A DNA stretch of 64,000 nt from Thermodesulfobacteriota bacterium (GTDB taxonomy: Bacteria > Desulfobacterota > BSN033 > UBA1163): NCBI GenBank assembly GCA_026415035.1, contig JAOAHX010000002.1:1-64000 (forward strand). Direction: 5' to 3'. Under the pieces are notes generated by a model that was not told where the DNA came from, made no database searches, and worked only from the letters and a program-made list of their open reading frames with translations. The position numbers were made by a program, and so were the translations under genes. This document shows positions 45,287 through 60,827 of the stretch, in pieces (the stretch's first letter is position 1; each line of letters starts with the position of its first letter).

Positions 45287-46726
45287 TCAAGGGATTTTAT
45301 AGCCCTTTTTCGCAAGCCGGTAGGCCAGATCGAGGACCATCTCTTCTGCATCCTCCCCATCGACGATGCCCCTGACCACGAGGCCCGCCACCCAGTTGGC
45401 GCTTGCCCTGCGCCAGAGGTCGTGGCGTGCCGGAATGGAAGGAAACGCCCGGGTGTCGTCATTGAAGCCCACCGTGTTCTGGAGCCCAGCAGTCTCCATC
45501 ACCCGATCGAAATAGCGCCTCATCCCGTTGAGGCTGTCGTGAAACCACCAGGGCGGACCCAGTTTTAACGCGGGGTAATGGCCTGCCAGAGGGGCCAGTT
45601 CCCTCGAATAGGTCGATTCGTCCAAGGTAAAGAGGATCAAGTTCAGCCTTGAATCGTTCCCATATTTATTCAGCAGGGGACGGAGGTTTTTCGTAAACTC
45701 GGACTGGGCCGGGATGTCCGCTCCCATGTTGGGCCCGAAACGGCGAAAGAGGAGGTCGTTGTGGTCGCGAACGGAGCCGATGTGGAGCTGCATCACCAGG
45801 CCATCCTCGATGCTCATCCGGGCAAACTCCATGATCATGTGACCTTGAAATCGCCTCGCATCCTCCGCGTCCACCTGTCCTCGGAGGGCCCGTTGGAAGA
45901 TCGCCTCCGCGGCGGAAAGGGTCAACTCCTCAGTCCAGGCGGTCTCCGAGGCATGATCGGTCGAAAGGGCTCCCATGGATTTAAAGAAGGCCCTGCGCTC
46001 TTCAAGGGCCCGAATAAAGGTTTGGTAAGAGTGGATCGAGAGATGGGTCACCTGGCTCAGGGCGTTCAGGTGACCGGCCCAACCCTCGGCCAAGAGGTTG
46101 ATGAGGCTGTCGGGTCGAAAGGTCGGTCGGACCCTCCCGCCCCATCCGGATTCGCGGAGGGTTTGATGAGGGGTCAGCGGATCGGTGGCCGCATCGGTGG
46201 TACAGAGGACCTCGATGTTAAATCGTTTAAATAACGCCCGGGGACGAAATTCCGGGAGATTCAGCTTGGCCTCGAGCTGATCATAGATGGATTGGGCATT
46301 TTTCCCCGTCAATTTCTCCTCGATGCCGAAGACATCCCTCAGCTCATGGGCCAGCCAGAGGCCTGTGGGCGTCCCGCGGAAGAGGAAGAAGTGGTCGGCG
46401 AAGAGCTGCCAGATCTTTCGATGGTCCGTTTCAGTGGGGGCTCCGTCCCTTCTCGGGATACCCAGGGCCTCGAGGGGGATTCCCTGGGAGTAGAGCATCC
46501 GGAAGACGTAGTGGTCCGGGAGGATCAAAAGATCGACAGGGGTGCCAAAAGAGGCCTTTTCGTCGCCGAGGAGCTTCGGATCGACATGGCCATGGGGGCT
46601 GAGGATGGGCAGATGGGCTATCCGCCGGTATAACTCCATGGCGATTTGGCGTTGGGCCGGGTCCGGGTCGAAGCATCGATCTTCAGGAAGGTTCCATTTC
46701 CCACCGTTTTCCATCATCCGCCTCAC
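45287..46726 (-). CDS. uxaC: Uronate isomerase
   Basis: 479 residues. GTG 46726 overlaps the previous stop (GTGA); an ATG three codons in (46717) is also possible. The amidohydrolase-fold metal site HGHVDPKLL is near residue 42, CTTDAATDPLTPH near 168, GLVMQLHIGSVRDHN near 310 and the closing GFNDDTRAFPSIPARHDLWRR near 430; all match UxaC. It interconverts D-glucuronate and D-fructuronate, or galacturonate and tagaturonate. It is the last gene of the large minus-strand sugar-acid series and agrees with the KDG kinase and KDPG aldolase upstream. Confidence 0.95.
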   Translation of the reverse strand: MRRMMENGGKWNLPEDRCFDPDPAQRQIAMELYRRIAHLPILSPHGHVDPKLLGDEKASFGTPVDLLILPDHYVFRMLYSQGIPLEALGIPRRDGAPTETDHRKIWQLFADHFFLFRGTPTGLWLAHELRDVFGIEEKLTGKNAQSIYDQLEAKLNLPEFRPRALFKRFNIEVLCTTDAATDPLTPHQTLRESGWGGRVRPTFRPDSLINLLAEGWAGHLNALSQVTHLSIHSYQTFIRALEERRAFFKSMGALSTDHASETAWTEELTLSAAEAIFQRALRGQVDAEDARRFQGHMIMEFARMSIEDGLVMQLHIGSVRDHNDLLFRRFGPNMGADIPAQSEFTKNLRPLLNKYGNDSRLNLILFTLDESTYSRELAPLAGHYPALKLGPPWWFHDSLNGMRRYFDRVMETAGLQNTVGFNDDTRAFPSIPARHDLWRRASANWVAGLVVRGIVDGEDAEEMVLDLAYRLAKKGYKIP

Positions 46727-47712
46727 ATCCCCTTCAGGGAGGCCCTCGTCCTCCCGCTCACCTCAGGATTGACGACCGACCCAGGCCATCGTCCTTGAAG
46801 GACGGAGGCCACGTTCTCGGCCGTCCTCCGTTTCAACTCACGAATGGAGTCCTCCGAATAGAACCCCACGTGAGGAGAGAGGACGACGTTCTCCATCCGG
46901 AGCAGAGGGGAGTCCGGATCCGGGGGCTCCTTTTCGAGGACATCGAGGCCTGCTCCGGAAAGCAAACCCTCGTTGAGGGCCCGGATCAGAGCCTTTTCAT
47001 CGACGATCGGCCCCCTGGAGGTATTGATCAGCAAGGGCCTCCTCTCCATCTTCTTGAACTCCTCTTCTCCGATCAGGTGCCGGGTCGATTCGTTCAAGGG
47101 ACAGTGGATCGAGAGGATGTCCGATTCCCTGAGGACTTCATCGAAGGTTTTGAGCCGGACGCCTTCCGGAGCCGCTTTCAGATAAGGGTCGTAGGCGATG
47201 GTAGCGACCCCGAAGGCCGACATCATCCTCGCCGTCTGCAGGCCGATCTTCCCCGAGCCGATGAGACCCAGGGTCTTTCCCCTCAGACGAGGGATGGGGA
47301 TCCCCTGACGGAAATCCCACTGATTCGATTTGACCCTTCGGTCGAAGAAGGCCGTCTTTCGCAGGAGCGTGAGGATCAGGGCGACGGTGTGGGTGGCCAC
47401 CTCCTCGATGCAGTAGTCGGGGACATTGGCCACCACGATCCCGAGGTCGGTGGCGGCCCGAAGGTCGATCGAGTCGACCCCGACGCCGTAGCGGGCGATG
47501 ACCTTGCAATTCGGAAGTTGTTCCAGGACCCTTCGGGTGAGCAGGGCATATTGATTGATCAGGCCGTCCGCATCATGGCAGACCCGGATCAGGTCTTCTT
47601 CCTCCCGGACCTGGGCCAGGGTGAGTTGGGCGCCGGTCGGAGCGAAGACCTCCCTTTCCTCCTCGATGGAGCCGTGGTCGCAATCGGTAATGACGATCTT
47701 GTAAGGGGCCAT
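46723..47712 (-). CDS. D-isomer-specific 2-hydroxyacid dehydrogenase
   Basis: 329 residues from ATG 47712 (GAGGTG upstream). The NAD-binding motif GLIGSGKIGLQTARMMSAFG near 145, catalytic Arg in INTSRGPIVDEKAL near 229, Glu near 258 and the His in LSPHVGFYSEDSIREL near 276 are all in place, with CIEEVATHTVALILTLLRK near 100. It reduces a 2-keto acid to the D-2-hydroxy acid or the reverse; the closest feel is the CtBP/3-phosphoglycerate dehydrogenase branch. In a sugar-acid cluster it may handle 2-keto-aldonates or glyoxylate-type acids. It overlaps uxaC by 4 nt. Confidence 0.92.
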   Translation of the reverse strand: MAPYKIVITDCDHGSIEEEREVFAPTGAQLTLAQVREEEDLIRVCHDADGLINQYALLTRRVLEQLPNCKVIARYGVGVDSIDLRAATDLGIVVANVPDYCIEEVATHTVALILTLLRKTAFFDRRVKSNQWDFRQGIPIPRLRGKTLGLIGSGKIGLQTARMMSAFGVATIAYDPYLKAAPEGVRLKTFDEVLRESDILSIHCPLNESTRHLIGEEEFKKMERRPLLINTSRGPIVDEKALIRALNEGLLSGAGLDVLEKEPPDPDSPLLRMENVVLSPHVGFYSEDSIRELKRRTAENVASVLQGRWPGSVVNPEVSGRTRASLKGM

Positions 47713-47731
47713 AATCCTGTTCACCTCATTT

Positions 47732-48766
47732 CTATGGGATCAGGATGACCTTGGCGGCCTGGAGGCTCTCCAGGAGACGGAAGGCCTCTTCCCATTGATC
47801 GAGAGGGAGCCTGTGGGTGATGATCTTTTCGATGGGCAAGATCCCTTTCGAGATGAGGCCGATTGTCGTCTCCCAGGCGGTCCAGCTGCTGGAAAAGCAG
47901 AAGTCATACCGGAGGGCCTTGAAGATCCCCCGATCGTAGGGGATGGGGACCTCCTCCCTTCCGGAAATCCCGATGGCACATACCCGGCCCAGCCTCCTCA
48001 CCATCTCGAAGGCCTGAGAGATGGCCCTTCCATTTCCTGAGGTCTCGATGAGCAGGTCGACTCCCAGGCCATCGGTCATCTCCAAGACCTTTTGAACCGG
48101 GTCCTCCCTGTCCACGACGATCGTGGCCTCTATCCCAAGCTCCTTGGCCTTTTGGAAACGGACGCCCTCATCGGCGCTCGTGCCCGTGATGGCCATCACC
48201 CGAGCTCCTGCGGATCTGGCCACGGCGAGAGAGATCAGGCCGATGGGGCCTGGCCCGGTGATGACGACCGTCTCTCCGGCCCGGAGCTGTGAACGTTCGA
48301 GGATGGAGGTGACGCAGATGGCGGTGGGCTCGATGACCGCGCCCGCTTCAAAGGAGACATTATCAGGAAGGCGATGGAGAAGCCGGGCCGGGCCGGCCAC
48401 ATATTTGGCATAGGCGCCATCCATTCCAATCCCATAAGGCCTCTTCTGTTCGCAGACCTGCGGAAACCCGCTCTGACAGATATAGCACATGCCGCAAGAA
48501 CCGGTCCTCGTCTCGCTGACCACCCGGTCTCCCACCTTCCATCCCCTCACTTCCTTTCCGACCTCCGCGATGACCCCTGAAAATTCGTGGCCCAAGATGA
48601 CGGGTGGCCAGTAGGGATGGGCATCGTGGTAGATGTGGAGGTCGCTTCCGCAGACCGAGACCGCCTTGACCTCGATCAGGACCTCGTCTTCCTTGATTTT
48701 AGGCTCTGGGACGTCCCGGAGCTCGATCATCCCTTTTCCTTTTCCATATTTCACGACGGCTTTCAC
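47732..48766 (-). CDS. Zinc-dependent medium-chain dehydrogenase (threonine/polyol DH-like)
   Basis: 344 residues, GTG start with AAGGAG. Catalytic zinc ligands: Cys in VSVCGSDLHIYHD near 38 and the HE of ILGHEFSGVI near 60. Structural zinc cysteines: SCGMCYICQSGFPQVC near 92. NAD-binding GPGPIGLISLAVARSAGA near 168. Members oxidise secondary alcohols of threonine, polyols or sugar acids such as L-gulonate and L-idonate. With uronate isomerase, KDG kinase and KDPG aldolase beside it, a sugar-acid dehydrogenase (for example fructuronate or tagaturonate reduction) is the best guess; the substrate is not proven. Confidence 0.92.
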   Translation of the reverse strand: MKAVVKYGKGKGMIELRDVPEPKIKEDEVLIEVKAVSVCGSDLHIYHDAHPYWPPVILGHEFSGVIAEVGKEVRGWKVGDRVVSETRTGSCGMCYICQSGFPQVCEQKRPYGIGMDGAYAKYVAGPARLLHRLPDNVSFEAGAVIEPTAICVTSILERSQLRAGETVVITGPGPIGLISLAVARSAGARVMAITGTSADEGVRFQKAKELGIEATIVVDREDPVQKVLEMTDGLGVDLLIETSGNGRAISQAFEMVRRLGRVCAIGISGREEVPIPYDRGIFKALRYDFCFSSSWTAWETTIGLISKGILPIEKIITHRLPLDQWEEAFRLLESLQAAKVILIP

Positions 48767-48787: not shown

Positions 48788-50065
48788 TTATGGGCTTTCC
48801 TGGCTGACCGGCAGGACTTCGCCTCCCCGTTGAAGGACGGCCACTTTGGCCTTTCGACCCAAAAGGGAGAAGGCCATTTCGAGGGCCTCCTGCGGGGTCT
48901 CGGCGTGGAGAAAGCCGAGCCGCTCTTTCTCCGCCTTTGAGATTCCCTTCGCAACGAAGATGGCCCTTGCCCTCTCCTTGATGACCCGGCCCACGTGGAC
49001 GAGGTGGGCGGCTGCGGTCAATTTCCGGATTTTGCCCTGATGATATAACCGTTCTGCCTCTTCATACGTCTGATATCCAAACTCCAAAACTTCGGGGTGA
49101 CTGGGAGAGACCCCTTCCGGGCAGGGCGAGACGAGGACGACCACCCCTCCCTGTTTGACGGCCAGCTCCGAGGCATAGATGCCCTTTGCAGCGAGCCAGA
49201 GTTCGGAATCGTAAGGATGGGAATCGACTACGACGATATCCGCATCCGCGGGAAGCTCCGCCTTGTAAACCTCCAGGGAACGTTTTCCGCCCTGTCGATA
49301 GGCGAGGACCGGATCTCCTGCGACCGCATCGACCGTTCTGCCCGTGCCGTCCTGGATGGTGTTGACGATCCACCTCAAGCCGGCCTTAAGGGCGACCTCC
49401 TCGATCTCCTCCTTGACAGGGTTTTCGACCTTTCCGAGGATCTCCCGTCCCCTGAAGCGGGCGCTCAACCAGTGGGTCTTCCCAGTGGTCTCTTCACCGC
49501 AGATCCCAGGCTGGATGATGTTTCCACCTCCGCTGAACCCCGAAACCCGGTGGGGCACGATCTGGCCCACGCCGATGATGAAGTCGACTTCCTGGACGAT
49601 CCGGTTGACCACGACCGGGGTCCCCCTTCTCGTCTCTCCGAGATGGACGAGCTGGGAGGGATTCCACCATTCGTGGTTGAGGAGGGTGAATCGTTGGCAG
49701 AACTCCTTCCCGAATTTCTGGACCATCTCCTGCGGGCTCATGGGGCGGTGCGTGCCCAAAGCGATGAGGATCCGGATATTGGCCTGTGGGATTCCTGCCT
49801 CCTCGAGTCTCCTGATCAGGGCGGGAAGGATCTTCTGAACGGGCGTGCTTCGTGTATAATCATCCACCGCCAAAAGGATCCTCTCCCTGCCCGTCAGGAT
49901 ACGGGCGAGGGGATCGGATCCAACCGGATGTGAGAGGGCCTCTTCGATGATCGCCTCCTCGGCCTTTTCGACATCGAGGATCGAGGGTGAGAAGACTCCC
50001 ATGAGGTTCTCCTCCGGGATCTCCATCGGGCCGAAGTCTCGATAGGGGAAGAGATGCCTCATCAT
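48788..50065 (-). CDS. LarA-family (nickel-pincer racemase/epimerase-like) protein
   Basis: 425 residues. ATG 50065 overlaps the KDPG aldolase stop (ATGA); the longer frame upstream is shadow. Family motifs: AVDDYTRSTPVQK near 70, ALGTHRPMSPQEMV near 105, HRVSGFSGGGNIIQPGICG near 173, and TGKTHWLS about 26 residues after that His. By spacing against Lactiplantibacillus LarA (His108, His174, Lys184, His200) the three His are kept but the Lys that tethers the nickel-pincer cofactor is Asn here (SGGGN). LarA relatives include malate racemase and a D-gluconate 2-epimerase. Between KDPG aldolase and a zinc dehydrogenase gene, a sugar-acid C2 epimerase is a sound guess. No larB, larC or larE lies in the window. 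Confidence 0.85.
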   Translation of the reverse strand: MMRHLFPYRDFGPMEIPEENLMGVFSPSILDVEKAEEAIIEEALSHPVGSDPLARILTGRERILLAVDDYTRSTPVQKILPALIRRLEEAGIPQANIRILIALGTHRPMSPQEMVQKFGKEFCQRFTLLNHEWWNPSQLVHLGETRRGTPVVVNRIVQEVDFIIGVGQIVPHRVSGFSGGGNIIQPGICGEETTGKTHWLSARFRGREILGKVENPVKEEIEEVALKAGLRWIVNTIQDGTGRTVDAVAGDPVLAYRQGGKRSLEVYKAELPADADIVVVDSHPYDSELWLAAKGIYASELAVKQGGVVVLVSPCPEGVSPSHPEVLEFGYQTYEEAERLYHQGKIRKLTAAAHLVHVGRVIKERARAIFVAKGISKAEKERLGFLHAETPQEALEMAFSLLGRKAKVAVLQRGGEVLPVSQESP

Positions 50066-50712
50066 CCGCCCCTGGCATCCCGAACGGCCTTGAGGAAGGC
50101 TCGGGCATTTTCCGTGATGACCTCGAACTTTCCTGCCTGAACGGCCTTCTTGTCCACCAGCTCTCCTCCGACGCCGATGGCCGAGGCACCCGCCTTGATG
50201 AAGGCGCCCGCATTTTGAAGATTGACGCCTCCTGTGGGGACGAGGAGGATCTGGGGAAGGGGACCTTTGATGGCTTTCAGATATTCTGGGCCTCCCAACT
50301 GGGCCGCAGGGAAGACCTTCACCATGTCGGCGCCCGCGTTCCACGCAGTCAAGATCTCGGTCGGGGTCATGGCCCCAGGGACGACGACCGCGCTGTAACG
50401 GTGGGCCAGCTGGATCACCTCGAGATTGAGGGTCGGGGTGACGATGAACTGGGCTCCTGCGAGCAGGGCGGCACGTGCGGTTTCAGGATCGAGGATGGTG
50501 CCCGCGCCCAGGATAATTTCGTCCTTGTATTTCTGGGACAATTCCTTGATGACGTCGATCGCACCCTGGACGCTCATCGTGATCTCGATGAGGCTGATGC
50601 CCCCCTCCTTGATGGCATCGGAGACCTCGATGGCCTCCTTGGCCGAGGCGACACGAACGACAGGGATCACCCCTTCTTCCAACATTCGATTAAAAATCTC
50701 CCGTTTCTCCAT
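50062..50712 (-). CDS. eda: 2-keto-3-deoxy-6-phosphogluconate aldolase
   Basis: 216 residues; ATG 50712 follows GGAAGGGAGG. KDPG/KHG aldolase hallmarks: EEGVIPVVRV near 11, the catalytic Glu in ISLIEITMSVQGAID near 40, LGAGTILDPETARAALLAGA near 70, and the Schiff-base Lys in ADMVKVFPAAQLGG near 133, with VPTGGVNLQNAGAFIKAGAS near 160. It splits KDPG to pyruvate and glyceraldehyde-3-phosphate. The kinase that makes KDPG is encoded 153 nt upstream. Translationally coupled to the LarA-like gene by a 4-nt overlap. Confidence 0.95.
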   Translation of the reverse strand: MEKREIFNRMLEEGVIPVVRVASAKEAIEVSDAIKEGGISLIEITMSVQGAIDVIKELSQKYKDEIILGAGTILDPETARAALLAGAQFIVTPTLNLEVIQLAHRYSAVVVPGAMTPTEILTAWNAGADMVKVFPAAQLGGPEYLKAIKGPLPQILLVPTGGVNLQNAGAFIKAGASAIGVGGELVDKKAVQAGKFEVITENARAFLKAVRDARGG

Positions 50713-50772
50713 CGTAACCTCCCTTCCGAATACGCTCGATCCCCCCTCCCTCATGATGGATCTATACGGATC

Positions 50773-50834
50773 CTCCAAGGCCAGAGGGTCTAATTGGGTG
50801 GGGTCTGGTCCCTTGGAGATGGACGGTGACCGTC
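50773..50834. repeat. Large hairpin and palindrome between kdgK and eda
   Basis: CTCCAAGGCCAGA (50773-50785) pairs with TCTGG-TC-CCTTGGAG (50804-50818), a near-perfect 13-bp stem with a 2-nt bulge and 18-nt loop. Next to it is GACGGT-G-ACCGTC (50822-50834). Both lie in the 153-bp gap of the minus-strand series. An attenuator, processing site or operator is possible; there is no T-run right after the stem. Confidence 0.5.
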
Positions 50835-50865: not shown

Positions 50866-51852
50866 CTACCTCGAAATCCTCAAGCCTGCGCCCTTGAGCT
50901 GGGCCTCGACCTCTTCAAGGGTGCACCAGTTAAGGTCACCCGGGACCGTGTGTTTCAAGGCCGAAAAGGCATTTCCATACTGGAGACCTTTTTCAACGTC
51001 CTTCAGTTTGACCCACCCGTAGAGGAAGCCGGCCGTGAAGGAGTCGCCCGCACCCACCCGGTCCACGATCTCCACCTCATACTTTCGGTCCCTGAAGATC
51101 TTCCCGTCGTAATAGGCGATGGCGGTCCAGTTGTTTCTCCAGACCGAAAGATCCTCCCGGAGGGTGATGGCCACGACCTTGAAGTTGAAGGTCCGGGCAA
51201 GCTTCTCTGCCACCGTCTCGTAATCCTTCTCTTTGATTCCGAAGACGACGTTGGTGTCCTCCTCGGTCGTAATGAGAATGTCCACCTGCTCCATCATCGG
51301 TTCCTGAATCTTTTTGGCATCGGCCGGCGTCCAGAGTTTCTTCCGGTAATTGAGGTCGTAAGAGACCGTGCACCCCGCCTTCTTGGCCGATCGTAGCGCC
51401 TCGGCTGTCACCTCAGCCGCCGAGGGGCTCAGGGCCGGCGTGATCCCGCTCGTGTGGAAATGTTTCGCTCCATCAAAGACCTTTGCCCAGTCGATCTCTC
51501 CCGGCTGGATCATGCTGATCGCGGAGTGGGCCCGGTCATAGAGGACGCTCGAGGCGCGGGGAGAGGCGCCGAACTCGACGAAGTAGAGGCCTGCCCTTCC
51601 CTTGTCCGACCAGACCACATGGGAGCAATCCACGCCGAATTGCTGGGCCCGGTTCCGGATGAGATAGCCCAATCCATTCCTGGGGAGCTTGGAGACCCAG
51701 GCGCTCTTCAGGCCCAATCGAGTCACGCCCACGGCCACGTTGAGTTCCGCTCCTCCAGGGTGGACATCAAAAATCTGGGCCTGTTCCAACCTCTGAAAAT
51801 TGGGAGGCGAAAGCCTCACCATGGCTTCACCAAAAGTCACGATGTCGTACAT
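50866..51852 (-). CDS. kdgK: PfkB family sugar kinase, probably 2-keto-3-deoxygluconate kinase
   Basis: 328 residues. PfkB fold: FGEAMVRLSPPNFQRLEQ at the start, GGAELNVAVGVTRLGLKSAW near 33, SYDLNYRKKLWTP near 163 (typical KDG-kinase segment), ITTEEDTNVVFGIKEKDYE near 193, and the ATP/anion-hole signature DRVGAGDSFTAGFLYGW near 263 with the catalytic Asp. It phosphorylates KDG to KDPG, the substrate of the aldolase encoded next. The final step of sugar-acid entry into central metabolism is therefore complete here. Confidence 0.93.
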   Translation of the reverse strand: MYDIVTFGEAMVRLSPPNFQRLEQAQIFDVHPGGAELNVAVGVTRLGLKSAWVSKLPRNGLGYLIRNRAQQFGVDCSHVVWSDKGRAGLYFVEFGASPRASSVLYDRAHSAISMIQPGEIDWAKVFDGAKHFHTSGITPALSPSAAEVTAEALRSAKKAGCTVSYDLNYRKKLWTPADAKKIQEPMMEQVDILITTEEDTNVVFGIKEKDYETVAEKLARTFNFKVVAITLREDLSVWRNNWTAIAYYDGKIFRDRKYEVEIVDRVGAGDSFTAGFLYGWVKLKDVEKGLQYGNAFSALKHTVPGDLNWCTLEEVEAQLKGAGLRISR

Positions 51853-51909: not shown

Positions 51910-53115
51910 TCAGGTTCCTTTTTTGACCTTCCGCAACACCTCCTTGTAATATTCTTGGTAAACCGGGCATCCGACTTCGACCTGAGATCTCAGCAGGATA
52001 CTGCATCCGCCGCAGGCCGTACAGTAGTTGATCTGGTCAAGATGGCCCGAAAGGATTTTCCTGGCAAAATGGGGGTCGGCGAGGGTCTGCCTGCCGATGC
52101 CCACCAGATCGACCGCCCCCTTTTTCAGGTTTCTCTCAGCCCAGTAGAGGAAGCTCTTTTTTGAGGGATCGGGTTCTTTGAGGTCGTTCTTTCCATCCCT
52201 CAAGTAGCTGTACCCGGATCCGATCACCGGGATCGTCACCGCCTTTTTGACAGCCCCTGCCCAGCCAAAATGTCTGTAAACCCCCTCTGGATAATTCTTC
52301 GTTGGTCTGACGATTTCGGGCGTGAGGGCCGGTATCCCTGCCGAGACATTGAGGAAGTCCATCCCGCAGTCTTCGGCCATCTTTGAAAATCGGAGGGGTT
52401 CGGAGAAGTCTTCGACCACCTCCTCGGGACCAGCGGTTCCAAAACCTCCAGGGATCCCTTCATAAAAAGAGAATCTCATCCCGAGGAGAAACCCATCCCG
52501 GCCGACCTTCGCCTTGATCTTTTCCATGGTCTCTCTGAAGAACCTCGTCCGGTTTTCGAAGCTACCGCCGTAGGGCCCAGGCCTCGTGTTGGCAGGCCGG
52601 ATCATCTCCCCGCAGAGGTACCCATGGCAGTGTTTGAAGTCGACCCCGTCCGCTCCCACCTGTTTGGAGAGGAGGGTGGCCTTGACAAAGGCTTCCCCGA
52701 TCTCCTCAATTTCCCGATCCGTCAAGAGATGGACCGAGGGATCTCCGGTGGGATAGAGGGAGACGACCTTTGAGAAGGCCGCTCCGCTCACGCGACCCGA
52801 ATGGTTGAGCTGGAAGACGATGAGCGTTTCAGGATGGATGGCCCTCATCTCGAGGACAAGTTTTTCCAACCCTTTGGCCGTCTCCTCGGAGATTTTCAAC
52901 TGATTCTTTCGGGCCCGACTCTCATAGGTAAAGGTAAGGGATTCCACCATGAGGATCCCAGGGCCTCCCTCTGCGAGGGTTCGATAACGTTGAAACGTCC
53001 GCTCGGTGGGATTTCCTTCGTCGTCCCCATCGTTACATTCCATGGGTTGATAGACGATCCGGTTGGGGGCCATTCGGTTACCCACCCTCAAGGGTTTAGA
53101 AAGCATCTCTGACAT
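51910..53115 (-). CDS. Old-Yellow-Enzyme-like NADH:flavin oxidoreductase with Fe-S site
   Basis: 401 residues from ATG 53115 (GGAGGAATAAGG upstream; the stop of the flavoprotein gene is in that site). FMN-binding TIM barrel of the OYE/2,4-dienoyl-CoA reductase type: PNRIVYQPMECNDGD near 18, FQLNHSGRVSG near 100, GVDFKHCHGYLCGEMIRPAN near 155, and VDLVGIGRQTLADPHFARKI near 335. After the barrel a Cys cluster CTACGGC plus CPVY about 12 residues on resembles the [4Fe-4S] site of the longer family members, whose FAD/NAD domains are missing here. Partner electron transfer could come from the flavoprotein encoded 2 nt upstream. Confidence 0.9.
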   Translation of the reverse strand: MSEMLSKPLRVGNRMAPNRIVYQPMECNDGDDEGNPTERTFQRYRTLAEGGPGILMVESLTFTYESRARKNQLKISEETAKGLEKLVLEMRAIHPETLIVFQLNHSGRVSGAAFSKVVSLYPTGDPSVHLLTDREIEEIGEAFVKATLLSKQVGADGVDFKHCHGYLCGEMIRPANTRPGPYGGSFENRTRFFRETMEKIKAKVGRDGFLLGMRFSFYEGIPGGFGTAGPEEVVEDFSEPLRFSKMAEDCGMDFLNVSAGIPALTPEIVRPTKNYPEGVYRHFGWAGAVKKAVTIPVIGSGYSYLRDGKNDLKEPDPSKKSFLYWAERNLKKGAVDLVGIGRQTLADPHFARKILSGHLDQINYCTACGGCSILLRSQVEVGCPVYQEYYKEVLRKVKKGT

Positions 53116-53117
53116 CC

Positions 53118-54959
53118 TTATTCCTCCGGCGGAAACCTGAGGTCCACGGGTTTCGCCCTTCTCCATCCCATTTTCCCTGACTGTTTCTGAAGGATGATAT
53201 ATCGCCGCCCTTCCGGATCCCGGGAGGGCAGGGGGTTTAGGTCCTCAAAGCAACGGAAGAAGAGATGGGGGCCCCTGGATTCCCTTCGGAGGAGACAGGC
53301 CCTAAGGATGATCTCTGCCACATCGAGAAGGTTTCTTGTTTCAAGGGCGAAGACCCATCCTCTCTCGTCCCTTTTGATCCCCATCTGTCTCAGCGATCGG
53401 AGGCTTCGCAGCCCCTCCCTCAATCCCGCCTCGGTTCTCACAACGCTGGCATAACGAGAGGCGATCGATTGGATCTCCTTCCGGACCTCCGAGGCCTTTT
53501 CCCCCCGGTCAAGGCCTCTCCATTCCCTGAGGAGGCGGTCGATCTGGGCAGGGTGGATAGGAGGGCGGGTTTGCCTCAAGGCCTCCAGGGAAGCCTCCCG
53601 TCCTGCGATCTTTCCGAAGACCTGGCCGTCGAGGAGGGCATTCCCTCCCGGCCGATTGGCCCCGTGCTGGCCGCCCGCACATTCTCCCGCGGCGAAAAGC
53701 CCCTTTAGCGAGGTCTGCGCCTTTTCTCGGATTTTGACCCCTCCTTGGAAATGTTGAACACAGGGGCCGATTTCGAGGAGCTCTCCGGAGCCGAGATCGA
53801 CGCCATGCTCCCTGAGCCAGTCGATCGATTCGGGATTGATTTCGAGGAGGCGATCGAAAGGCGATCGGTCCCTTGCCAGATCCGACAGGGGCCTCTTCAC
53901 CTCCCTCCGGTACCTCTCCTGCCACTTCGGGTCGAGGTTTCCAAAGGAGAACCCTTCGGGATTCGTTCGGTAGTCGAGGAAGATGCAGTGTCCTTTCTCC
54001 CTCTCTTTGAACATGGCCACATCGATGATGTGGGTGGGCTTCTCAAGAGAGAGGGGCCAACTGGAGCCCTTTTCAAAGATGAGGTTATGAAGGGAAGGCC
54101 GATCCATTGAACCGGGAAGGTACTTCCACAGAAACTCCTCTCCCCTCTCGTTGACGAACCTGGGAACGGCACGCATCAGACTTCCAGAGCAGTTGAGCCG
54201 GGTCTTGAGGGAGGCCGGGCCGATCTGGATGAACTCCATGTTGACCAACTCGGCCCCTGCACGATAGGCCAGGCCGTAGCCATCTCCGGTCATCCCATCG
54301 GGATAAACGTGGATTTGGAAGACTTCGCCCGCTCCTCCTGTGGCGAGGACGGTCGCCTTGCTCGAGATGATCCAGATCCGGTCCTCAAGCCTCTCTCCCT
54401 TTATCTCCTCGTCTATCCCCACGGCCCCGATCACCCTTCCCCGGTATTGGAGGAGTTCCGCGATCATACATCGCTCGATGATCCGGATGTCGGTTGTCGA
54501 GATTTTTCTCACCAGGGCCTCTTCGATGTGATTGGCCGTCCTCGGGCCGGTGTAGCAGGCGCGGGCATAGTCCGAACCGTCGGTGACGAACTGATCGACC
54601 CGACCATCCTCCCGCCTGACGAAGGGAACCCCCAGACGATCCAGATATTCGAAGGCCGACCGGGACTCACGGGCCAAGATCAGGGCAAGATCCCCGTCCG
54701 AGACATATCCTCCCATCCGATAGATGTCTTCGGCATGGTATCGCCAGTTTTCCGGGCCAACGGGTTCGGTATAAGGAAGGGTGGCATGAAAGGCCATGCG
54801 GTCCGAGCAGGCGGTCGCCGTGACCCCCGACTTCCCTAACCTTCCCTTGGTGGCCAGCACGATCCTTCCTCGCTTCAAGGTCTCCTTGGCTTCAAGGGCC
54901 GCCCTGAGGCCTGCGCCTCCTGCACCGATGATGAGGACATCGCATTGGATCTTTTTCAA
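53118..54959 (-). CDS. Fumarate reductase/aspartate oxidase-like FAD protein
   Basis: 613 residues, TTG start with AAGGAG. Dinucleotide-binding IIGAGGAGLRAALEAKETL near 10, ATGGAGEVFQIHVYPDGMTG near 212, RFVNERGEEFLWKY near 265, and FAAGECAGGQHGANRPGGNAL near 427 identify the succinate dehydrogenase/fumarate reductase flavoprotein family. The usual HPT block of the substrate site reads QIGPAS here, and the His for covalent FAD is absent (GKSGVTATA), so a free-FAD enzyme with a different substrate is expected. The catalytic-type Arg of ANRPGG and the His of VQHFQGG remain. The OYE-like gene follows 2 nt after the stop: a two-protein flavin system is likely. Confidence 0.9.
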   Translation of the reverse strand: MKKIQCDVLIIGAGGAGLRAALEAKETLKRGRIVLATKGRLGKSGVTATACSDRMAFHATLPYTEPVGPENWRYHAEDIYRMGGYVSDGDLALILARESRSAFEYLDRLGVPFVRREDGRVDQFVTDGSDYARACYTGPRTANHIEEALVRKISTTDIRIIERCMIAELLQYRGRVIGAVGIDEEIKGERLEDRIWIISSKATVLATGGAGEVFQIHVYPDGMTGDGYGLAYRAGAELVNMEFIQIGPASLKTRLNCSGSLMRAVPRFVNERGEEFLWKYLPGSMDRPSLHNLIFEKGSSWPLSLEKPTHIIDVAMFKEREKGHCIFLDYRTNPEGFSFGNLDPKWQERYRREVKRPLSDLARDRSPFDRLLEINPESIDWLREHGVDLGSGELLEIGPCVQHFQGGVKIREKAQTSLKGLFAAGECAGGQHGANRPGGNALLDGQVFGKIAGREASLEALRQTRPPIHPAQIDRLLREWRGLDRGEKASEVRKEIQSIASRYASVVRTEAGLREGLRSLRSLRQMGIKRDERGWVFALETRNLLDVAEIILRACLLRRESRGPHLFFRCFEDLNPLPSRDPEGRRYIILQKQSGKMGWRRAKPVDLRFPPEE

Positions 54960-54990
54960 TCCTGGCTCCTTGGTTGAGAACGTCTCACCC

Positions 54991-56079
54991 CTAAGGTGAC
55001 AAGACCACCTTGACCGCCTGCCTCTCCTTCATGGCGTAGAGGGCTTCGTTGGCCCGGGCCAGGGGATAGACGTGGGTGATGAGATTTTTAAACTCCTCCT
55101 TTCGGTTCAGGATGAGCTGGATGGCCATGTGGGTGTGTCGGACATCGCTCGTCCAGATCCCCTGCAACCGGAGGTTCTTCCGGTTGAGATCGTGAAAGCA
55201 ATCGAGCTCGATGGTCCCGTGGGGTTCGCCGAAGCCCGCGGAGACACAGGTCCCTCCGTTCCGGACCAGAGTGATGCACTCCCTGACCGCCCCGGGCTCG
55301 CCCGCCATCTCGAAGGCGACATCCACCCCCCGGCCATGGGTGAGCTCCAGGATGGCCTCCTTTCGTTCGGCCGGGTTGATTTGAAAACGGTTGAGGGTGT
55401 GGGTTGCCCCGAACCGTCGGGCCATTTTTAATCGTTCTTCTGTGCCTCCGATGACGACGATCGGAGAGGCCCCGGAGGATTTCGAAAAGGCGACCATGAA
55501 GATCCCCAGGGGGCCCGCCCCTTGGACGAGGACCGAATCGCCGGATTCCAAACCTGAGAGATCAAGGGCATGGGCGGCCGTGGCCCCAGAGCATGAGGCG
55601 GGGACCAGGGTGGCAGGTTCGATCTCCATTTCGATCTTAAAAAAGTCCGTCTCCTTGACGAGGAGGAGGTACTCGGCATAATTTCCGGTCAAAAAGGGAG
55701 GCTCCGAGCAGGTGGTGTGGATGCCGTAGACCCACCGATGGGGGCAGAGGGAAGGCATCCGTTTCACCCGGCAGAAATAGCAGTGGCCGCAGGTGACCCC
55801 TCGGTTCCAGAGGACCTTGTCTCCCTTCTTCAGGGGGATCCCATGGACGTCTCTCTTCTCTCCCTTGAGGTCGACAATCTCCCCCGCCCCTTCGTGGCCG
55901 AGGATGATCGGAAGTCGGGTCCGGGGGTCTCTCCCTTCCCACATATGGACATCGGAACCGCACACACCCGCCGCCTCGACCTTGACCAAGACCTCCCCCT
56001 CCTTCAAGGCGGGGATGGGAAAGCTTCGGAGCTCCAAGGGGTGGTTGAATTGGGTTAATACCGCAGCCCGGGATTCCAT
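54991..56079 (-). CDS. Zinc-binding alcohol dehydrogenase
   Basis: 362 residues. Catalytic zinc: Cys in AAGVCGSDVHMWEGRD near 38 and ILGHEGAGEIVDL near 59. Structural zinc cluster TCGHCYFCRVKRMPSLC near 95. NAD-binding VQGAGPLGIFMVAFSKSSGA near 186. The Trp/Arg-rich middle (KVLWNRGVTCGHC) resembles MDR enzymes acting on sugars, phosphonates or aromatic alcohols; the substrate is unknown. The ATG directly abuts the cupin stop (TAGATG), so the two are coupled. Second zinc dehydrogenase of the cluster and distinct from the one at 47732. Confidence 0.92.
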   Translation of the reverse strand: MESRAAVLTQFNHPLELRSFPIPALKEGEVLVKVEAAGVCGSDVHMWEGRDPRTRLPIILGHEGAGEIVDLKGEKRDVHGIPLKKGDKVLWNRGVTCGHCYFCRVKRMPSLCPHRWVYGIHTTCSEPPFLTGNYAEYLLLVKETDFFKIEMEIEPATLVPASCSGATAAHALDLSGLESGDSVLVQGAGPLGIFMVAFSKSSGASPIVVIGGTEERLKMARRFGATHTLNRFQINPAERKEAILELTHGRGVDVAFEMAGEPGAVRECITLVRNGGTCVSAGFGEPHGTIELDCFHDLNRKNLRLQGIWTSDVRHTHMAIQLILNRKEEFKNLITHVYPLARANEALYAMKERQAVKVVLSP

Positions 56080-56454: not shown

Positions 56455-57630
56455 TCAACCCTCCTCTTTCCCTACCAAATCGACTCGCCTCCCGGTTTCG
56501 GCGGAGAGGTAGGCGGCATAGATCACCTCGACGGTCTCGTAGGCCAAGTCCAGGCCTGAAATCGGCTCGCGATCTTCCAGAATGGCGTAGACGAAATCTT
56601 CCATCTCCTGGGGATAGCCCCTCATCCAGTCCTCATCGGGCGAGGGAAACTGCCATCCGGCCTTCGTCTCCACCTTCTCGGTGATGTATTCGGAACCGAA
56701 GATATTTCCATCCGGGGCATAGACGACCAGGCTGTTATTCGGATTGATGTTGATCTGGGCCACGGCATTGGAGAGGTAGACCGCCATCAGATTCTTCACC
56801 CCCCCGAGGCTCACATCGGTCGAAAGGATGGTCGCCTTGGAGCCGTCCTCGAAGGTGAGGATCGCGCTGGCCCAATCCTCTACATCGATCCAGGAATCGA
56901 CCATCCATTTTTTGGGCTCCTTCTTGAAGGCCTCCATTCGGGTCAGGTAACCGACATCGCCCAGGACGGACTTGACCCGGATGGGCTTTCCCCCTTTCAG
57001 GAGGCCTTCGTAATGTTTGAGGTGGAGGACCGCCCCGATGGGATGGGAACCTAACCGCATGAGGGATCCGCCGCCGGAGGTGATCCATTGGCGGGAATAG
57101 ACCGCATGCGAACCGGAATGGCTCTCCTCTGCCCGGATATCGAGAACCGTCCCTCCGCAGGCCTTCATCAGGCTTTTGAGCTTCGCCACCGGAGGGGCGT
57201 AGACGAAGTTCTCGGCATAACCGAATTTGACCTTATTTCGCCTGACCGCCTCGACCACCGCGGAGGCATTCTTCAGGGCTTCTTCCATCATCGTCTTTTT
57301 GGGAATCGATCCCTCTCCAAAGTATCCGGTCAAGGGCTTTTCGCAGAGGATATGCTTGCCCGCCTGGGCAGCCTCGATGGCGATGGTGTGATGGAGATTG
57401 GTCGTCACGCAGAGATCGACGGCCTGGATCTCCTTCCGTTCGAGCATCCGACGGTAGTCCGTGAAGACCTGCGGAATATGGAAGCGTTTTGCAAAGGCCT
57501 CGGCGTTTTCGAGGCTTTTGGAGCAGACCGCCAGGATGTCCACCTTCAGCCCTCTCAGCTTTTCAAGGGCCCGCACGTGAAGATCGGCCGCAAATTTAGA
57601 GCCCACGATTCCGATTCCAACCCTTTCCAT
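56455..57630 (-). CDS. Gfo/Idh/MocA family oxidoreductase
   Basis: 391 residues; ATG with AAGGAGG. NAD(P)-binding GIGIVGSKFAADLHVRALEK near 5, AVCSKSLENAEAFAKRF near 35, and HILCEKPLTGYFGEG near 94 (the EKP motif with catalytic Lys). The C-terminal beta-sheet domain carries the substrate His-type segment (AEESHSGSHAVYSRQW near 170). These enzymes oxidise sugars, inositols and sugar acids at a hydroxyl. Downstream of the TctABC-type transporter and beside the cupin, it likely acts early on the imported substrate. Confidence 0.93.
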   Translation of the reverse strand: MERVGIGIVGSKFAADLHVRALEKLRGLKVDILAVCSKSLENAEAFAKRFHIPQVFTDYRRMLERKEIQAVDLCVTTNLHHTIAIEAAQAGKHILCEKPLTGYFGEGSIPKKTMMEEALKNASAVVEAVRRNKVKFGYAENFVYAPPVAKLKSLMKACGGTVLDIRAEESHSGSHAVYSRQWITSGGGSLMRLGSHPIGAVLHLKHYEGLLKGGKPIRVKSVLGDVGYLTRMEAFKKEPKKWMVDSWIDVEDWASAILTFEDGSKATILSTDVSLGGVKNLMAVYLSNAVAQININPNNSLVVYAPDGNIFGSEYITEKVETKAGWQFPSPDEDWMRGYPQEMEDFVYAILEDREPISGLDLAYETVEVIYAAYLSAETGRRVDLVGKEEG

Positions 57631-57659: not shown

Positions 57660-59216
57660 CTATTTCTCCCTTTCCGCCCCCTTCTTGCGAGGGAAGTCCT
57701 TTCCAATTTTAAGCCAGAGGAGGCGACCTCCCTCCTTGAGGGCGCGTCTCAAGGGATGGATGCTGAGCAAGATGGACGAGAGCGTGATCACCCAGAGGAC
57801 CAGACAGATCGGTCGGGTGAAAAAGGGAATGAGATCGCCATCGGTCAGGACGAGGCCCCGGCGGAGGTTTTTGTCGAGGAGGTCGCCCAAGATGATTCCC
57901 AAGACCAGCGGTGCCATCGGATATCTCATGCGACGGAGGATATATCCCAGGATCCCGAAACCGACCATCACCCATATGTCGAAGATGCGGTTCGTGATGG
58001 CATAGGACCCGACCGCACATAGCACAAAGACGATGGGCATGAGACGGGTCCTCGGAATGGCCAGCACCTTGAGGAGGATTTTTGTAAGTCCCACGCCATA
58101 GATGAGGATGGCCAGGGTGGCGAAGAAGACCATGGCCACCACCTGGTAGACGAACTGGGGGGACTCCACCATGATCAACGGGCCAGGCCGGAGGCCATGG
58201 ATGAACATGGCGGCCAGGAGGACCGCGGCCGGGGCTGATCCAGGGATGGCCAAGGTGAGTGCTGGGATGATGGCCCCGGGCACGACGGCATTGTTACCGG
58301 TCTCGGCCGCCATCAGCCCTTCCAAAGACCCTTTTCCGAACTTCTCTCGTTCCTTGCTCTTCCGCCGGGCAGCGGCATAGGAGACCCATGCCCCGATATC
58401 CTCCCCGACCCCGGGGATGATCCCGATGAAGGTCCCGATCAGGCCGCTCCGGATGATCGTGCGCCAGTATCGGAGGACATCGCCGAGCTTTGGCAGGATG
58501 CTGTCTTTGGGAGCGGCGGCCACTTTGGCCGGGGGGTTATACATCACGTTCAAGACCTCGGAAAAACCAAAGGCGCCCACCATGGCCGGGATGAGGGCAA
58601 AGCCACCCAAGAGCTCGGTCGTGCCATAGGTGAAACGCTCATAGGCATGAATGCCCTCCTGTCCGACCATGGCCACGAGAAGCCCTAAAAAGCCGGCGAT
58701 CCAACCTTTGATCGGGTCCTCGAGGGCAGTCAGGTGGCCGGAGATCACGATCCCGAAGATGGCCAGCCAGAAGAATTCGAAGGATTGAAATTTCAAAGCG
58801 TAATTCCCCAGCCAGGGGGCGATGGTGGCCAGGAAAAACATCCCGATGAGGCTTCCGAGAACCGAACCGGTCGTGGCCACCCCCATCGCCCGACCCGCCA
58901 ATCCCTGCATCGCCAGGGGAAAGCCATCCAGTGTCGTGGCCGCATTGGCCGGGGTTCCGGGGATGTTGATGAGGATGGCGGTCCGACTCCCCCCATAGAT
59001 GGCTCCCACATAGACGCAGATGAGGACCAGGATGGCGAGGTTTGCCGGAAGCTTGTAAGTCAGGGTCGTGATAAGGGCGATGCCCATGGTGGCCGTCAGC
59101 CCTGGAAGGGCGCCGATGAGGATTCCGAGGAGGGTGGCCCAGGCGATGTGCAGGAGTGCCGCAGGGGTTATAAATCCAGCGATCGCATTCAGGAAATTGA
59201 CCAAGTTATCGATCAT
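57660..59216 (-). CDS. tctA: Tripartite tricarboxylate transporter large permease TctA
   Basis: 518 residues with about eleven or twelve membrane helices. The TctA signature GALPGLTATMGIALITTLTY near 38, YVGAIYGGSRTAILINIPGTPAN near 68 (split here only by naming: GGSRTAILINIPGTP), and GIIPGVGEDIGAWVSYAAARR near 265 are present. It forms the channel of TTT-type secondary transporters that import tricarboxylates or other organic acids with Na or H. TctB and a TctC binding protein are encoded upstream on the same strand. Inner membrane. Confidence 0.95.
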   Translation of the reverse strand: MIDNLVNFLNAIAGFITPAALLHIAWATLLGILIGALPGLTATMGIALITTLTYKLPANLAILVLICVYVGAIYGGSRTAILINIPGTPANAATTLDGFPLAMQGLAGRAMGVATTGSVLGSLIGMFFLATIAPWLGNYALKFQSFEFFWLAIFGIVISGHLTALEDPIKGWIAGFLGLLVAMVGQEGIHAYERFTYGTTELLGGFALIPAMVGAFGFSEVLNVMYNPPAKVAAAPKDSILPKLGDVLRYWRTIIRSGLIGTFIGIIPGVGEDIGAWVSYAAARRKSKEREKFGKGSLEGLMAAETGNNAVVPGAIIPALTLAIPGSAPAAVLLAAMFIHGLRPGPLIMVESPQFVYQVVAMVFFATLAILIYGVGLTKILLKVLAIPRTRLMPIVFVLCAVGSYAITNRIFDIWVMVGFGILGYILRRMRYPMAPLVLGIILGDLLDKNLRRGLVLTDGDLIPFFTRPICLVLWVITLSSILLSIHPLRRALKEGGRLLWLKIGKDFPRKKGAEREK

Positions 59217-59240
59217 CGGCGTCGAACCCTTTTGCCAACC

Positions 59241-59741
59241 TCACGGCAGAGATACCAGAAAGAGGCGCTCGAAGATCAAGGTGATGGCGATGGATGAAAG
59301 GGTGGCGATGGCCAGGGCCGAAAAGAGGGTCCTCCCCTTTCTCCCGGCGTTGCCAACAGGCTCCCATTCGAAGAGGAGGATGAAGGTGAAGATGAAGAGT
59401 CCTGTGGCCAGAGGGTAAGGGAGCCTCCCGATCAATAGGAGGGCATAGATCAGGCTCAGGAGGCCGGTCAGGAGAAGACGTTTGTTCTCGGGAGCCTTCA
59501 ATGTCTGTGATAAGCCCCGCATCGAAATGCTCAGACGATGTCCCCCCCTCAAGGCGGACCGCAAGGTTAAAACGGCCCCAAAGACGAAGAGGACCGATGC
59601 GAGAAAGGAGGGCACCAATCCTGGAACGCTCAAGGGGTGAACCTTCAGGTGTTCCAGCCGAGGCATCCGGCCGGCCTCAATGATCACATAGAGGCTTAGG
59701 CCCATCAGCAACAAACCTGTCACGAAGTCGGCCTTTGGCAT
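59241..59741 (-). CDS. tctB: Tripartite tricarboxylate transporter small permease TctB
   Basis: 166 residues from ATG 59741. Four membrane helices: DFVTGLLLMGLSLYVIIEAG near 5, SVPGLVPSFLASVLFVFGA near 38, and two in the second half (LLLTGLLSLIYALLLIG; TLFSALAIATLSSIAITL). The VPGLVPSF segment is typical of TctB. It pairs with TctA (24 nt downstream). The longer frame to 59801 lacks a convincing start and would overlap the hairpin after tctC. Confidence 0.88.
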   Translation of the reverse strand: MPKADFVTGLLLMGLSLYVIIEAGRMPRLEHLKVHPLSVPGLVPSFLASVLFVFGAVLTLRSALRGGHRLSISMRGLSQTLKAPENKRLLLTGLLSLIYALLLIGRLPYPLATGLFIFTFILLFEWEPVGNAGRKGRTLFSALAIATLSSIAITLIFERLFLVSLP

Positions 59742-59771
59742 CTCGATCCTAACCCCCTGATTGTGAAAGAG

Positions 59772-59809
59772 AGGAAGGGGCGAGGATCCGGAGAAACCCA
59801 CCCCTTCCT
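59772..59809 (-). repeat. Hairpin between tctC and tctB
   Basis: AGGAAGGGG (59772-59780) and CCCCTTCCT (59801-59809) are perfect 9-bp arms with a 20-nt loop, 10 nt past the tctC stop. No T-run follows. Such stable hairpins after a binding-protein gene often protect that part of the message so that more binding protein than permease is made. Confidence 0.55.
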
Positions 59810-59819
59810 TTTCCCGAAA

Positions 59820-60827
59820 TCAGGGCCTTGGCATGCCCACCTCGTCCGGCCTGATCTTGGCCTTTCCTCCGTCGTAGAGGCCCCAGGCCGCATTGACGAT
59901 GGATGGCCAGGCCTTTTTAAGGGCCTCTTCTCCATAGAAGGGGGCGACGATCTGACCTCGAAGCCGCGCAAATTCCCTCAACGATTTCGAGTGGGCCACC
60001 TTCTCCCGCCACACCTTGTTCATGGTCTCCACCACTTCCTTGGGGGCGCATTTCGGAATCCAGATGCCGAAGTAGATGGGGTCGGCCGCCACCTTGGGAA
60101 GCCATTTCGTTGCGGAAGGGACGGTTCCGTATCCATCGATCACCAGGTCTTCCGGGGTGAGGGAAGCCAAGGGTCGGAGCTTTTTGGCCCGGATCATCTC
60201 GATCTGTTCGCTGAGCAACTGCGTGGTGGCTATGGTCTCTCCTCCCACCGTGGCGATCACGGCAGGCGCGCCCCCGTCATAGCTGACCAGCTTGTAGTCT
60301 CCTCCGTTGGCTCGCTTGATGGCCTCGATGGCGGAGTGACCGGCCGAGGGAATTCCCGCGATCCCCACGGAGATCTTTTTGGGATCTTTCTTCATGAGGT
60401 CGAGAAATTCGGCAAAGTCTTTGATCGGTGCATTGGGATTAACAGAGACCAAGGTCGCATTGGCGCTGTTGAGATAGACATGCCAGTCCTGGACTTTGGT
60501 CTCAAGGGTACCGGTGATGATGTAAGTTCCCAGGTCCTTGATCGCTCCAGAGGCCCAGGTATAGCCATCGCAGGGGGCGTCGAGGACGCTCTTCGTTCCG
60601 ATGGCGCCTCCCCCTCCGGGCTGATTCACCACGACGATCTTCTGTCCCAGGGCCTCTTCGAGGTCCCCGACGATGGAACGGACCGCTTGGTCTGTGGACC
60701 CTCCTGCTCCCCAGGGGACAATGATCCGGATCGGTTTGGTCGGTTTCCAGTCTTGGGCAGAGACCCCACCGAATCCGGCCATGACCCCGAGGATGATCAA
60801 CCCGATGACCCACATCTTCCTTCTCAT
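59820..60827 (-). CDS. tctC: Tripartite tricarboxylate transporter binding protein TctC
   Basis: 335 residues. The signal peptide (MRRKMWVIGLIILGVMAGFG) ends near VSAQ. The Bug/TctC family pattern follows: PTKPIRIIVPWGAGGSTDQA near 30, VVVNQPGGGGAIGTKSVL near 65, GIPSAGHSAIEAIKRANGG near 150, and KTLEDL-like LKPLASLTPEDL near 215. Periplasmic receptor that binds a carboxylate and passes it to TctA/B, whose genes lie just downstream. One of two TctC genes in this cluster (the other begins outside the window end). Confidence 0.93.
   Translation of the reverse strand: MRRKMWVIGLIILGVMAGFGGVSAQDWKPTKPIRIIVPWGAGGSTDQAVRSIVGDLEEALGQKIVVVNQPGGGGAIGTKSVLDAPCDGYTWASGAIKDLGTYIITGTLETKVQDWHVYLNSANATLVSVNPNAPIKDFAEFLDLMKKDPKKISVGIAGIPSAGHSAIEAIKRANGGDYKLVSYDGGAPAVIATVGGETIATTQLLSEQIEMIRAKKLRPLASLTPEDLVIDGYGTVPSATKWLPKVAADPIYFGIWIPKCAPKEVVETMNKVWREKVAHSKSLREFARLRGQIVAPFYGEEALKKAWPSIVNAAWGLYDGGKAKIRPDEVGMPRP

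Follow-up and report, generated by a model that had tools for sequence, protein, structure and literature searches.

The larA homologue P0001, encoded in a catabolic operon for sugar acids in an uncultured bacterium of Desulfobacterota type, carries Asn at the position of the lysine that tethers the nickel-pincer-nucleotide (NPN) cofactor in LarA, and the replacement is shared by a whole clade. In this study, we lean towards the view that P0001 epimerises C2 of a six-carbon sugar acid as a nickel-pincer enzyme, with the cofactor held non-covalently. We infer cofactor use, non-covalent binding, epimerisation and the substrate class from the sequence, the predicted fold, the conservation of the clade, the operon and larBCE. 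A thioamide tether to Lys184 typifies nickel-pincer enzymes. The purpose of this tether is puzzling because one LarA functions although it does not form the bond (PMC11796402). The Asn clade, a natural one that has the Lys replaced and keeps the catalytic set, offers a test of the role of the tether in cofactor retention, oxygen stability and turnover. A further sugar-acid reaction would come to the LarA family with this clade, whose proteins form a defined set for assays.

Position, family and fold of P0001

P0001 lies in the window, the 64,000-nucleotide stretch of DNA that was analysed. Its reading frame is on the minus strand, and the frame on the plus strand is interrupted by stops. The first-pass annotation had placed a larA homologue at 48788-50065 and gave no strand. 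The homologue stands as a full-length ORF, and the minus strand is supplied here.

48788..50065, minus strand: larA homologue P0001, ORF of 425 aa with translation; Lar_N and LarA_C domains, AlphaFold2 model, Foldseek matches

P0001 scored 192 bits for Lar_N and 40 bits for LarA_C, both over the Pfam cut-offs. The AlphaFold2 model, built on an input alignment of 24 relatives, had a pLDDT of 95.8. Foldseek matched this model to LarA_Ip (9eid) with a TM of 0.91, the top value against the LarA structures, and also to LarA_Lp (5huq) and the LarA of T. thermosaccharolyticum (2yjg). The best-scoring curated NCBIfam model was the malate racemase LarAH6 (NF052593), with 285.1 bits against a cut-off of 500. 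The scores were 251.6 bits for the lactate racemase LarA (NF033504, cut-off 460) and 106.6 bits for the hexonate epimerase/GntE (NF052594, cut-off 500). For NF052592, the single-His LarA subfamily (LarAH14/15, group 17), P0001 reached 85 of 740 bits, and His172 is present. These results showed that P0001 is a homologue within the LarA superfamily and falls outside every characterised group tested. The domains and fold of the superfamily, its catalytic set and a genomic larB, larC and larE were all found; the tether Lys184, called universally conserved in LarA (PMC11851776), was not.

Active-site residues and the Asn-type clade

P0001 was aligned with the LarA of L. plantarum (5huq/6c1w), with Mar2 and with LarA_Ip, and HMMER was used for alignment to the solved LarA chains. 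The following sites were located.

49850..49852, minus strand: Arg72, LarA Arg75 (cofactor phosphate / substrate carboxylate), by alignments
49748..49750, minus strand: His106, LarA His108 (catalytic), by alignments
49550..49552, minus strand: His172, LarA His174 (catalytic), followed by Arg173-Val174 (Glu-Val/Ser in hexonate epimerases), by alignments
49520..49522, minus strand: Asn182, LarA Lys184 (tether site), codon AAC, by alignments and reading of the codon
49472..49474, minus strand: His198, LarA His200 (nickel ligand), by alignments
49430..49432, minus strand: Lys212, invariant in the Asn clade and absent from outgroups, a candidate compensating residue, by alignment
49193..49195, minus strand: Leu291, LarA Gln295, Leu/Val throughout the Asn clade, by alignments (PMC11851776)
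49184..49186, minus strand: Lys294, LarA Lys298 (catalytic), by alignments

The match of three His to LarA His108, His174 and His200, noticed in the first-pass annotation, holds for H106, H172 and H198, and in the HMMER alignment to the solved LarA chains the interval between the second catalytic His and the nickel-ligand His is free of gaps. The Asn reported there at the Lys184 position is Asn182 in every alignment tried, and a search for a hidden Lys at site 184 gave none in any of them. In the Asn clade, the interval from H172 to residue 194 does not include a Lys; therefore, an alignment shift cannot bring a Lys to site 184, and misalignment hiding the tether Lys was ruled out. The nearest Lys is K195, which is Arg in two orthologues. 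The equivalents of R75, H108, H174, H200 and K298 are retained in all full-length Asn-type sequences. At the Gln295 position, all Asn-clade sequences that cover it have Leu or Val, and the sister sequence has Gln. This Gln contacts the substrate carboxylate in LarA_Ip (PMC11851776). Lys212, Arg207, Lys218, Trp232, Tyr256 and a few others, 14 positions in total, are invariant in the clade and differ in the outgroups.

Orthologues were collected from relatives, from the phylum and from named GTDB contigs, and another 60 LarA gene regions were taken from the phylum. The tether site is Asn in 14 and Lys in 90 of the 104 aligned LarA sequences, with no other residue. Besides the window gene, the Asn-type set comprises 11 relatives from its own family (about 69-76% identity), G322 (63%) and G368 (about 61%); the 14 sequences come from three families of one phylum. 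In the maximum-likelihood tree, they form a single clade with an SH-aLRT of 100. Its sister, the sequence of G018 (52% identity), has kept the tether Lys. Six LarA from plasmids of other phyla all have Lys at this site. Outside the phylum, no further Asn-type LarA was found in the GTDB contig scan, the plasmid search or the class of G322; the contig scan used a single protein query that reaches close relatives only, and Asn-type LarA elsewhere are possible.

Between P0001 and four relatives, dN was 0.15-0.18 and dS 1.9-3.7, the latter near saturation. By this measure, the gene is under purifying selection. Because the Asn-type sequences form one clade, Asn occurs in 14/14 and dN is far below dS, K184N is a single conserved change fixed clade-wide in a constrained gene. 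A sequencing error or a pseudogene was ruled out by the 14 genomes and the purifying selection. The copy of G368 (L048/L070) is interrupted, and TctA, the M24 gene, larA and the Zn-ADH in L070 are each split in two. These splits look like an error-rich assembly rather than decay. In another relative (G005), larA ends after about 79 residues (L184 10865-11101).

Gene neighbourhood and the source of KDG

The neighbours of P0001 in the window are as follows.

45287..46726, minus strand: uxaC, glucuronate isomerase, by family matches
46723..47724, minus strand: D-isomer-specific 2-hydroxyacid dehydrogenase with the catalytic Arg/Glu/His motifs, by family matches
47732..48766, minus strand: Zn-dependent alcohol dehydrogenase (Zn-ADH), directly downstream of larA, by family matches
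50062..50778, minus strand: eda, KDPG/KHG aldolase, overlapping larA by 4 nt, by family match
50866..51852, minus strand: PfkB sugar kinase, KDG-kinase-like, 83-89% identity in the relatives holding it
51910..56079, minus strand: OYE-type flavoenzyme, fumarate-reductase-like flavoprotein and second Zn-ADH, in some relatives only
56455..57630, minus strand: Gfo/Idh/MocA-type dehydrogenase, by family match
57660..60827, minus strand: TctA, TctB (by position), TctC uptake system
61247..62353, minus strand: M24-fold protein with weak family scores only, conserved in many Asn-type clusters
62456..63442, minus strand: TRAP transporter binding protein (DctP)

The overlap of larA with eda, also seen in the first reading of this DNA, spans 50062-50065. 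A sugar-acid dehydrogenase had been described beside larA as well. The dehydrogenase is there, as the Zn-ADH; the term sugar-acid is only plausible, with L-threonine 3-dehydrogenase models closest and scores below their cut-offs. Past the window edge lie, as read by eye, a second TctA/TctC pair, an SDR, a TRAP system and an IclR-type regulator, in an apparent continuation of the cluster. Judged by its gene families, the neighbourhood is a uronate/KDG-type sugar-acid cluster.

This arrangement is largely kept in the relatives. The eda gene lies directly upstream of larA in 14/14 Asn-type loci. The 4-nt overlap recurs in L068 and L070, the most distant loci, and gaps were found in the closer relatives read in detail. 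The Zn-ADH and the 2-hydroxyacid dehydrogenase follow larA in nearly all Asn-type loci and uxaC in several; no Zn-ADH match was found in L063, and L061 ends inside larA. In L068 and L070, a KduI/IolB-like isomerase replaces the KDG kinase upstream of eda, a gluconokinase-like FGGY kinase comes after the 2-hydroxyacid dehydrogenase, and no uxaC was seen in the stretches covered. More distant Lys-bearing relatives are without a neighbourhood of the P0001 type. In the sister G018, a 2-hydroxyacid dehydrogenase adjoins LarA, and the contig ends there.

Some loci are rearranged. In L054 (7339-13643) and L057 (10281-14823), a NagA-like deacetylase and TRAP genes are inserted between larA and the Zn-ADH, and the insertion in L054 also holds a SIS-domain protein. 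The Zn-ADH, the 2-hydroxyacid dehydrogenase and uxaC were not found after the shortened larA of G005 (L184), where eda and the kinase are retained.

The presence of a KDG kinase and Eda implies KDG as an intermediate. In the host genome, which is 97% complete, neither UxuA nor a UxaA/GarD-type dehydratase was found. No Edd-type dehydratase was found there either: the single ILVD/EDD homologue reads as IlvD by eye. The one MR_MLE match in the genome is below the cut-off. A recognised dehydratase completing the route from hexonate to KDG was thus rejected for this genome, with the UxuA, UxaA/GarD and Edd types all undetected. It is possible that a gene was missed, since the genome is not fully complete. 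Possible origins of KDG are unsaturated uronates, an unrecognised dehydratase, or a 3-deoxyhexonate that LarA epimerises and the 2-hydroxyacid dehydrogenase oxidises.

In the last case, LarA would epimerise C2 of the 3-deoxyhexonate, the D-2-hydroxyacid dehydrogenase would turn one of the epimers into KDG by oxidation, the kinase and Eda would consume it, and a dehydratase would be unneeded. The lack of recognised dehydratases fits this scheme. So does the 2-hydroxyacid dehydrogenase, which is linked to LarA in Asn-type loci and adjoins even the LarA of the Lys-bearing sister. However, unsaturated uronates could also yield KDG without a dehydratase, and uxaC, the Zn-ADH and the KduI/IolB-like and gluconokinase-like genes would be left unaccounted for. 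In addition, 3-deoxyhexonates are not among the known LarA substrates in the literature searched. Overall, we consider this scheme unlikely.

Cofactor attachment and substrate pocket

Absence of larBCE, raised in the first-pass annotation, was ruled out: the host genome encodes LarB (contig C6), LarC and LarE (both contig C19), all over the curated NCBIfam cut-offs. LarC was found in 13 of 15 further genomes, including all 12 of good quality; the 15 include G018 and G005, both without an intact Asn-type LarA. Since the nickel-ligand His is invariant and larBCE is present, the natural inference is that P0001 uses NPN. Besides P0001, the genome has four LarA-type genes and one group-22 NPN isomerase (NF052515, over the cut-off), six in total; the other five are at C2 77513, C14 18846, C2 163708, C9 96706 and C8 57016. 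On contig C14, beyond the window, another LarA paralogue adjoins ilvD in convergent orientation (L086 6778-9871). Match coordinates suggest that this LarA-ilvD pairing is kept in most relatives, and the substrate of the paired LarA might be a dihydroxy-acid or a branched-chain hydroxyacid.

Asn is unable to form the thioamide that Lys184 makes with the pincer thiocarboxylate; therefore, NPN binding in P0001 would be non-covalent. The cofactor had earlier been proposed to be held differently, which most simply would mean non-covalently. The LarA of T. thermosaccharolyticum (2YJG) resembles this prediction: its NPN is untethered and is lost on purification, but its lysine is kept (PMC11796402). 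Untethered NPN is thus already known in a Lys-bearing LarA, and what is new here is a clade with the Lys itself replaced. No published LarA with Lys184 replaced was found in the literature searched, and a mutant study may exist.

Both the tether Lys and the carboxylate-contacting Gln have been lost, which would suit a protein that has the LarA fold but has given up NPN and serves another role in the operon. The nickel-ligand His, both catalytic His and the equivalents of Arg75 and Lys298 are nevertheless kept clade-wide, which makes this quite improbable. The presence of larBCE also argues against it, though the other LarA paralogues of the genome would need larBCE too. It is very unlikely that the cofactor is still covalently bound through another residue such as Lys212. 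Lys212 was gained with Arg207 exactly where Lys184 was lost, in the stretch between the nickel-ligand helix and a conserved Asn-Pro, and it could provide a charge or even an anchor near this helix. However, clade-specific residues are expected by descent, as the 14 such positions illustrate, and precedent for an alternative anchor is absent from the literature searched.

P0001 has kept the catalytic parts of a LarA epimerase, and by anatomy it would work like one, probably with non-covalent NPN. It would invert C2 of a hexonate of the mannonate/gluconate kind, or of a 3-deoxy or phosphorylated form, and in this way equilibrate an intermediate of the uronate/KDG/KDPG route around it. It would work by the proton-coupled hydride transfer of LarA, with both catalytic His. 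NPN would be held by the nickel-His198 bond, contacts of Arg72/Asp and hydrogen bonding, and perhaps would be exchangeable. The lactate racemase LarA of L. plantarum (5HUQ, 6C1W) shares the fold, both catalytic His, Arg75, His200 and Lys298 with P0001. It depends on LarB/C/E, and the same is expected of P0001. In contrast, its Lys184 tether is Asn in P0001, its Gln295 is Leu/Val, and its Phe-Phe after His174 is Arg-Val.

The pocket was compared with that of the hexonate epimerases, in which Desguin and colleagues described a Trp in helix 11 (PMC7583248) and for which the residue set E,V,A,H has been given (PMC11770544). P0001 has the Trp in helix 11 (W290) and the Val of this set, appears to have its Ala and His in helix 14, and has Arg for the Glu after His174. 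Alignment methods disagree by one residue on the helix-14 register to LarA_Lp, so direct motif comparison was used instead. The motifs are WLAAKGIY and AAAHLVH in P0001, WLGNKAIY and AAAHLIH in L178 of Catenovulum, and VWTAGKGSY and AAHVIN in GntE2 (4NAR). Mar2 also has AH at the helix-14 place, and the AAH motif is weak on its own. Trp at 294 together with a non-Gln residue at 295 occurred in the sample only in the Asn clade, two 'EV'-loop sequences and L052. Apart from the Arg after His174, the pocket appears to resemble that of hexonate 2-epimerases more than that of lactate or malate racemases. An ordinary malate/lactate-type 2-hydroxyacid racemase, with a functionally neutral Asn and an incidental operon link, is very unlikely: LarAH6 is the top curated model (285 bits) and Mar2 the closest solved sequence to P0001, but the score is well below the 500-bit cut-off, the Mar2 pocket differs (Tyr-Lys after the second His, Gln before K298; PMC7583248), and the conserved operon is of the uronate/KDG kind. 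Mar2/LarAH6 also differs in gene context, and Lys181 is present in Mar2.

Against the hexonate epimerase reading are the score of 107 of 500 bits, the Arg for Glu after His174, the uncertain helix-14 register and the lack of a recognised hexonate-to-KDG dehydratase. The Arg may accommodate a further negative charge of the substrate, for example in an aldarate or a phosphorylated hexonate. Extracts of L. suebicus have a 6-phosphomannonate 2-epimerase activity (6-phosphomannonate/6-phosphogluconate) without an assigned gene (PMC6978723). We tentatively entertain, without expecting it, a clade with permanent loss of covalent anchoring, exchangeable NPN, a rebuilt pocket and a sugar-acid reaction new to LarA. 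The rebuilt pocket would be the Arg after His174 and Leu/Val for Gln295, and the reaction could be 2-epimerisation of 6-phosphomannonate/6-phosphogluconate or epimerisation of a 3-deoxyhexonate. Overall, the earlier proposal of a sugar-acid epimerase with a differently held cofactor has gained strength from the clade-wide conservation, the operon and the pocket residues, which are like those of hexonate epimerases.

The single-His LarA (LarA_Sp, LarA_Bw; 9Q3K, 9Q3J) resemble P0001 in having Asn for a conserved active-site residue and in their linkage to carbohydrate genes. These proteins have a substitution at the second catalytic His and keep the tether Lys (PMC12611868), whereas P0001 is the reverse. 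The GntE hexonate 2-epimerases (4NAR; NF052594; L178) are like P0001 in the Trp in helix 11, a non-Gln residue at 295 and AAH, and they share neighbours of the P0001 kind (uxaC, TRAP or gluconokinase). They differ in the kept Lys184 and the Glu after His174, and overall similarity is low (26% to L178). The Catenovulum hexonate epimerase L178 itself scores 620.9 bits with the curated model. On a plasmid of Catenovulum adriaticum (L178 1-8383), it lies in a complete-looking cluster of uxaC, TRAP, gluconokinase, larA, larC and larB, a close functional parallel to the P0001 operon.
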